A stretch of 43,505 bases of DNA from assembly GCA_012269545.1 (NCBI GenBank), contig JAAXKB010000079.1:1-43505 (forward strand), in the 5' to 3' direction. Positions 42,227-43,505 of the stretch are shown here, piece by piece. Origin of the DNA: Gammaproteobacteria bacterium (lineage in GTDB: Bacteria; Pseudomonadota; Gammaproteobacteria; Pseudomonadales; Azotimanducaceae). Within the stretch, counting starts at the first letter, position 1, and every line of letters starts with the position of its first letter. The notes below the pieces were generated by a model. The model worked only from the letters and a program-made list of their open reading frames with translations, was not told the origin of the DNA and did not search any database. Made by a program: the position numbers and the translations under genes.

Positions 42227-43012
42227 CTAATCTAGGTTAGTTGAGGCGGCGGCTTGCGCACCTACGTCGTCGGCACTTTGCAACCTCGCCAACGCACGCT
42301 CAACTGCTACCATCCGTTTGTTCGACGCGATCCGAAAGGCATCAAAGGCCAGTACTGCCTCAGTATTTTCTGACACTTGCGGGCTCAGAGCCGCTTCGAT
42401 CTTTGCAAGACCTTGGGTCGCTACATTGCTTTTGTCGACCAACGCTCGCTGGGAACGCAACATTTGCTGCAGCTGAAGTTCGAGACTGGTGACCTGATCG
42501 ATGACTTGTTGCTGAACTTTTAAGGCTTCTTCGTGACGACCTGTAGCAGCTTTCAAATCCCGATTACTTGCGCGAATGCCGTTTAATGTGGCACTTACGG
42601 TTTTCAGCCCAGCCTGATTCTCCTTAATCCAATCTTTGTTGCGTTCGTTGGCAATGGCCCAGAGCTTGCGAATCTCAGATTCCCACAAATTTATTTGCTC
42701 TTTCGTATCTTGCCCCTCTTGGCTCATCGCGGTGTCCGTTGCAGACAATCGTTGCTCCAAAACCGCCAATCGTCTATTTGCGTCGTTGAGTCGGTCTTGT
42801 TCTGCCGCGAGCATCTGTTGTTGATTGGCGATAAACCAGCCCGCGCCAGCCAAACCCGCCACCATCAGAGCCAGAAGAAGTGTGGTTGCCATACCGCCGC
42901 CACCTGCGGGCTTACTTAATGGCCTGCGTGTCCCGCTGGAACGATAGCGATCATTCTCTTGGGTAGACAAAACGTCCTTGGTGGATTCATCCATGGGTTG
43001 CGCTCTTTTCAT
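42227..43012 (-). CDS. hypothetical single-pass membrane protein with coiled coil
   Basis: This 261-aa protein has a cytoplasmic, charged N-terminus (to about residue 40, with a GGGG turn), one transmembrane helix (ATTLLLALMVAGLAGAGWFI, about 41-60), and then a long helical region rich in Gln, Glu, Leu and Ala (about 61-210) that reads as coiled coil and presumably lies in the periplasm. A GTG at 43018 with GAGG 5 bases upstream is an equally good start. No enzyme motif is present. It resembles general envelope scaffold proteins only in layout. It is divergent from the HvfA-like gene. Confidence 0.68.
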   Translation of the reverse strand: MKRAQPMDESTKDVLSTQENDRYRSSGTRRPLSKPAGGGGMATTLLLALMVAGLAGAGWFIANQQQMLAAEQDRLNDANRRLAVLEQRLSATDTAMSQEGQDTKEQINLWESEIRKLWAIANERNKDWIKENQAGLKTVSATLNGIRASNRDLKAATGRHEEALKVQQQVIDQVTSLELQLQQMLRSQRALVDKSNVATQGLAKIEAALSPQVSENTEAVLAFDAFRIASNKRMVAVERALARLQSADDVGAQAAASTNLD

Positions 43013-43018
43013 CGACAC

Positions 43019-43320
43019 GGTGACCTCAATTATAGAAACGATATGCACCACATGACAGCGGCGAGTACGAAAATCGTAAAGCTGACCGCTGATCCAGATA
43101 ATGCTACGGCCTGTCGGTTTCGCGTTTTGACTTAGGCAGGCATCCGTAGGGTCGACTGTATTGGCCGAGATTGGTTTTCACTGGCTTTTCTTGAACGCAC
43201 TGAGGGGTATTCATCCAGTAGCTTTTAACGAAGGTCTCCTAACAGAGGTCTTAGAAAACCAAGCGTAACCGGGCATGAACGAAACGTTTTATCAGTAATT
43301 TCAATTTCAGGTCTCTTGTT
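43019..43320 (+). promoter_or_regulatory. divergent intergenic region before the HvfA-like gene
   Basis: This roughly 300-base region between two divergent genes holds three copies of AGGTCT (43232-43237, 43246-43251, 43309-43314), the first two 14 bases apart. It also has a CGTAACC element (43264-43270) with CGTTT at 43285, giving AAC-N15-CGT, a spacing close to that of ECF-sigma promoters. No canonical sigma-70 pair stands out for the plus strand. Regulation of HvfA/DUF2282-type operons by ECF sigma factors is known in other bacteria; here it is inferred. Confidence 0.35.
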
Positions 43321-43505
43321 ATGATTAAAAAACCCACGAAAAAATCCGTCGCGCTTGCGGTCAGTGCGGCCTTAGCAACTTCCCTAGCAGCGTCACCGCT
43401 AACTCATGCGAATCCACCATCGGACAACTCCTCGCTCTTAAACGCAGCGACTTTGGCAGGTGGTTATATGCAGTTCGCATTGAACGGCGAAGGTAAATGC
43501 GGCGA
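43321..43505 (+). CDS. HvfA-like secreted RiPP precursor (partial, 3' end outside window)
   Basis: The visible 61 residues begin with a Lys-rich n-region and hydrophobic core (KKSVALAVSAALATSLAAS) and a probable signal-peptidase site after THA (residue 30). A short linker with a GGYMQF stretch follows (LNAATLAGGYM), and the window ends in EGKCG (57-61), with the next codon beginning GA. The signal peptide plus a Gly-Tyr segment followed by EGKCG repeats is the signature of HvfA-type precursors. Their EGKCG cysteines are turned into copper-binding thiooxazole/oxazolone groups by the DUF692 enzyme HvfB with HvfC. The gene is cut by the window, so repeat number and partner genes cannot be seen. 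The ATG at 43321 has only a distant AGG as ribosome site, but no other start fits the leader. Confidence 0.78.
   Translation, partial: MIKKPTKKSVALAVSAALATSLAASPLTHANPPSDNSSLLNAATLAGGYMQFALNGEGKCG

Follow-up and report, generated by a model that had tools for sequence, protein, structure and literature searches.

The cysteines of EGKCG motifs are reported to be converted to 5-thiooxazoles by an MNIO enzyme acting with an RRE partner, and the products bind copper (PMC13419390, PMC12668002, PMC12538549). The Buf_EGKCG/oxazolin proteins collected so far, which come with the same core genes, number about 2,000 and are mostly from Pseudomonadota; the first Buf_EGKCG type is described as having 17-residue repeats with two EGKCG motifs each (PMC12452194). 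According to the accounts of these systems taken jointly (PMC13419390, PMC12668002, PMC12538549, PMC12452194), HvfBC prefers a precursor with the signal sequence still on, and FonBC modifies a two-repeat substrate but not a one-repeat substrate. The gene at the end of the DNA studied here is almost certainly hvfA and encodes the precursor peptide of an hvfA-B-C-X operon, as the initial annotation proposed, and its product would bind Cu(I). The operon belongs to this known and widespread Buf_EGKCG/oxazolin (captophorin) family and is an ordinary system; the suggestion in the initial annotation that it might be undescribed in this lineage is to be qualified, the kind being already described.

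The window, i.e., the whole stretch of 43,505 nucleotides that was analysed, is contig C19 in a genome assembled into 88 contigs (2,847,010 bases, 99.13% complete), and it ends inside hvfA because the contig ends there. The gene is completed on a second contig, C45, and its parts are the following:

43321..43505, plus strand: 5' two thirds of hvfA (185 of 276 bp), RiPP precursor gene, from the frame and the profile score of the joined product
43321..43410, plus strand: probable Sec signal peptide MIKKPTKKSVALAVSAALATSLAASPLTHA, likely cleaved after THA, by eye
43459..43479, plus strand: GGYMQFA segment ahead of the core, from a loose pattern in relatives
43489..43503, plus strand: first EGKCG motif of four, from the sequence
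C45:53-143 (L003): rest of hvfA (91 bp including the stop), from continuation of the frame across the join

The ORF at 43321..43503 on the plus strand starts with ATG, has no stop before the window end and reads MIKKPTKKSVALAVSAALATSLAASPLTHANPPSDNSSLLNAATLAGGYMQFALNGEGKCG. The leader, the Gly-Tyr segment and the single EGKCG that had been claimed within the window are all present, and the trailing GA, which had been taken for the start of a second motif beginning with Glu or Asp, encodes the Glu of an EGKCG on C45. There the frame continues as EGKCG-DARGEKGKGEKGK-EGKCG-EGKCG-GA-stop, with a TGA stop at C45:141-143. The joined precursor has 91 residues and, in line with the prediction of more copies downstream, four EGKCG motifs, which are arranged as two pairs around the Cys-free spacer DARGEKGKGEKGK. 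This paired layout would fit the two-repeat preference of FonBC. When the whole genome was searched with a degenerate DNA pattern for an adjacent pair of EGKCG motifs, there were exactly two hits, both in hvfA, and the reversed-pattern control gave 0; confined in this way, the motifs are not due to chance. By eye, the N-terminus shows a basic start, a hydrophobic core and an A-x-A-like end, and close relatives are similar. A GY/GF element is common to most relatives, the loose pattern being found in 29 of 33 precursor rows (L006/L035 and L007/L036 are apparently the same loci, each entered twice); the misses are L009, where a fusion lies at the start of the contig, L021 and L027, both incomplete at or near contig ends, and L032. 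The element may be read by the recognition domain of HvfC.

The profile search of the precursor, proposed in the initial annotation as a deciding check, gave a divided answer. The joined product passes the model for paired motifs (NF050137, KCGExKCG_twice; 25.2 bits vs cut-off 19.5) and fails the HvfA equivalog (NF050188; 34.5 vs 95 bits), a cut-off that the related precursor of L036 also misses (60.7 vs 95 bits). For this reason we place the precursor in the wider EGKCG family. No Pfam family matched the joined precursor at E 0.1, and no Pfam or NCBIfam family matched the 61 residues inside the window alone, so it is the continuation on C45 that carries the case.

We infer the join of C19 and C45 from overlap and gene order, not from reads. 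Positions 43454..43505 are identical to the first 52 bases of C45 (an assembly overlap), this 52-mer has one occurrence in the window and one within the first 20 kb of C45, and the reading frame stays open across the join. Repeats are known to break contigs and C19 breaks where the repeat array starts, and one could suppose that the overlap is an assembly coincidence and that the hvfA start in the window comes from another, unassembled locus. Several observations make this exceedingly improbable. L036 and L037, which come from a single related MAG, each carry the genes of both the window side and the C45 side on one contig, in the same, unbroken order (acyltransferase, minus-strand neighbour, hvfA-B-C-X, Urate_ox_N-like gene, groEL), which supports the join. 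Moreover, a profile search found a single PF05114 gene in the genome, and the leader DNA of hvfA has no match elsewhere in it. DNA searches of the genome found no second copy of the window end or of 43060-43180 except for the C45 overlap. L035 keeps the same order until its contig ends inside hvfC.

With the two contigs joined, hvfA is followed by these genes:

C45:136-1032, same direction as hvfA: hvfB (MNIO/DUF692), from profile scores
C45:1029-1817, same direction as hvfA: hvfC (DUF2063/PME1), from profile scores
C45:1837-2433, same direction as hvfA: hvfX (DoxX), from profile scores
C45:2551-3201, minus strand: Urate_ox_N-like gene, from a family match
C45:3398-5038, minus strand: ORF read as GroEL, from reading of the ORF list

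The DUF692, hvfC-like and DoxX genes that had been expected downstream are thus all on C45, and all three pass their equivalog cut-offs; a stop without further motifs and a lack of any DUF692 gene nearby were also looked for on C45, and neither was found. HvfB scores 332.4 bits against PF05114 (cut-off 25) and 413.9 bits against the HvfB equivalog NF003818 (cut-off 360). It fails BufB (NF050167; 264.2 vs 310 bits) and MbnB (TIGR04159; 51.2 vs 325 bits), and the ApyH and ChrH models likewise match it below their own cut-offs. Its best solved relative by sequence is PDB 3bww (E 5.7e-71), with which the HGLSL, HLS, VEN-SYY, LDVNN, HIAGH, DTHG and ERDFN stretches are kept. HvfC passes its equivalog NF050145 (224.1 vs 142 bits) and scores above the cut-offs of DUF2063 (65.1 vs 27.2 bits) and NGO1945_C, with PDB 3dee as best solved relative by sequence (E 2.3e-12). 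HvfX passes NF050144 (222.2 vs 80 bits) and DoxX (77.2 vs 23.6 bits). The genes are tightly packed: the GTG start of hvfB overlaps the hvfA stop (an in-frame ATG at C45:67 would lengthen the ORF) and hvfB overlaps hvfC at TTGA, both overlaps being kept in 4/4 loci (our own, L035, L036 and L037, the last two from one MAG).

By analogy with the described systems, HvfC would bind the leader and present the precursor to HvfB in the cytoplasm, where HvfB, using an iron cluster and O2, would turn the EGKCG cysteines into 5-thiooxazoles with loss of four hydrogens per Cys. The modified peptide would then be exported by Sec, lose its signal peptide and bind Cu(I) in the periplasm or envelope; buffering or protection is the most likely purpose. 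For Microbulbifer, the authors are described as hesitant about a copper-protection role (PMC12538549). A different fate can be imagined, in which the peptide is cut by a protease and released as a methanobactin-like, copper-scavenging metallophore instead of being retained as a buffer. The chemistry is indeed related to that of methanobactin, and both one polypeptide and smaller peptides made by host proteases are considered as the mature product in an account of a related system (PMC12668002). Nevertheless, the ORFs and family matches inside the hvf operon include no protease or exporter gene, HvfB scores far higher with the HvfB model than with the MbnB model, and Sec export with signal-peptide cleavage is what is described for the oxazolin, further export being left possible there (PMC13419390). 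We consider release as a metallophore unlikely; reading of the ORF lists found transporter-like ORFs in other parts of the window and on C45, and genes outside the operon could still provide export. The presence of hvfX raises the question whether the operon serves mainly against oxidative or sulphur stress and not in copper handling, since a DoxX homologue is noted to protect against such stress in another context (PMC12452194). The EGKCG products studied so far are reported to bind copper (PMC12538549, PMC12668002, PMC13419390), and a mainly stress-related function appears slightly less probable still than release. When the ORF lists were read over, no copper gene or regulator was conspicuous.

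Two features lie upstream of hvfA:

42227-42994, minus strand: neighbour divergent from hvfA, a conserved ORF
43089..43128, no strand assigned: conserved non-coding block, TGATCC..GTCGGTTTCG, candidate regulatory site, from alignment with relatives

The block is well conserved in L035, L036 (a partial row in the alignment) and L037 and recognisable in L008, and it is better conserved than the hvfA-proximal half of the intergenic region. We take it to be reminiscent of an ECF-type promoter. The pattern TGATCC-N16-18-GTCGG occurs five times in the genome against about four expected at equal base frequencies (reversed-pattern control 0), which is not significant. A search for a ChrR anti-sigma regulator gave a single hit below the cut-off (34.1 vs 124.5 bits), a cupin-like ORF adjoining a gyrase-like ORF (both labels by reading), and this candidate was dropped. 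In a sigma-70 scan, the one promoter-like site lies at 43058-43029 on the minus strand (mean of shuffles 0.5), and one terminator-like site was found (mean of shuffles 0.6); neither scan shows anything for hvfA. Rfam gave no match on 42900-43505 up to E 1.

The neighbour is 85.9% identical to its counterpart in L035 and 84.7% to those in L036 and L037. It matches no family above its cut-off and, from its sequence, reads as a membrane-anchored coiled-coil protein. At L009:1-380 (genome G034, contig C14), its N-terminal part runs in frame into an EGKCG core that lacks a Sec leader, and the neighbour points the same way as hvfB; in the other eight loci where it was found, it is divergent. This is likely an amplification or assembly chimera, with a real fusion as the alternative.

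The distribution of the operon was examined in 58 genomes, our own included. An MNIO match was found in 33 of them, comprising 17 of 36 same-genus genomes, several of which are incomplete, and 15 of 21 same-order genomes. With MNIO matches in 17 of 36 genomes of its genus, the hvf operon is patchily distributed. The MNIO search yielded 30 loci, one of them our own. Among the other 29, an EGKCG-like ORF is present in 27 (L006-L032), with L033 and L034 as MNIO loci without one, and hvfC matches in the same 27, the match in L010 being limited to a stretch where the contig ends. The hvfX query matches in at least 11 of the 29; with flanks of about 1.5 kb, this number is a lower bound. In L031, hvfX lies on the opposite side of hvfB. 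Outside this set of loci, a contig titled 'Halobacteria archaeon isolate Site_C19' encodes, at L038:308-2968, an EGKCG precursor along with matches to hvfB, hvfC and hvfX; its organism label may be wrong given the 58% match to the bacterial hvfB. L039:3450-3905 (Lysobacteraceae bacterium NML08-0793) encodes an EGKCG precursor with, by reading, an EF-hand-like stretch between two motif groups, and it may be related to the published EGKCG/EF-hand type.

The number of motifs varies among close relatives. L036 and L037, both from MAG MED810, can be aligned in two pieces without gaps, 4,922 and 3,894 bases long and each 99.74% identical (13 and 10 mismatches) and overlapping each other by 39 bases in L037. 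The offset between the pieces is 108 bp inside hvfA (L036:3544-4002, L037:3652-4002) and amounts to two 18-codon cassettes, each an EGKCG pair with a spacer. The products have six EGKCG-type sites (one of them EGKCD) vs two. Since both loci are in one MAG, strain mixing or an assembly error could underlie the difference. The repeat unit of L036 has 18 residues and that of the window's gene has 23; in the latter gene, the spacer contains GGAGAGAAAGGTAAA twice in tandem; from the sequence, the Cys-free GEKGK-GEKGK spacer reads as a 15-bp tandem duplication. Microbulbifer precursors are likewise reported to vary, from five to eight Cys (PMC12538549). It is conceivable, though we hold it only tentatively and rather doubt it, that copper-binding capacity in this lineage is adjusted as whole EGKCG cassettes are rapidly gained and lost. 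If so, standing cassette variation could also account for the break of C19 inside hvfA. Precursors with two, four and six motifs thus occur naturally among close relatives and lend themselves to asking how copper binding depends on motif number. The locus is also a well-supported new hvf operon in a RiPP class described only recently, and it comes from a lineage in which the close records are metagenome-assembled.

Among the described systems, the operon resembles the oxazolin HvfA-B-C-X of nontypeable Haemophilus influenzae, as reported, in its paired EGKCG motifs, its MNIO with an RRE partner, its DoxX protein and, probably, its signal peptide (PMC13419390). The H. influenzae HvfA is described as having three AEGKCGEGKCG units with six Cys (PMC13419390), whereas the precursor here has its two pairs set apart by DARGEKGKGEKGK. 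EGKCG-type repeats together with an MNIO and a DUF2063 partner are shared with Fontiphorin (FonA-B-C, captophorin class; PMC12668002), where they lead to 5-thiooxazole, and with the Microbulbifer mmr/bulbicupramide system, where 5-thiooxazole was tentatively assigned (PMC12538549). The four sites here compare with seven modification sites reported for FonA (PMC12668002) and five to eight Cys in EGKCG units for MmrA (PMC12538549). The bufferins Buf1 and Buf2, linked to copper stress, are described with an MNIO, a DUF2063 partner, often a DoxX protein and a signal peptide on the precursor, as here, where the signal peptide is probable; unlike ours, their precursors are of the DUF2282 type or have 6/12 Cys (PMC12452194), and our HvfB stays below the BufB cut-off. 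With methanobactin (MbnA-B-C) the operon shares MNIO-modified Cys and copper binding, the latter presumed here, and it differs in that methanobactin has MbnC as the partner and an oxazolone/thioamide as the heterocycle, and in the low score of its HvfB with the MbnB model.
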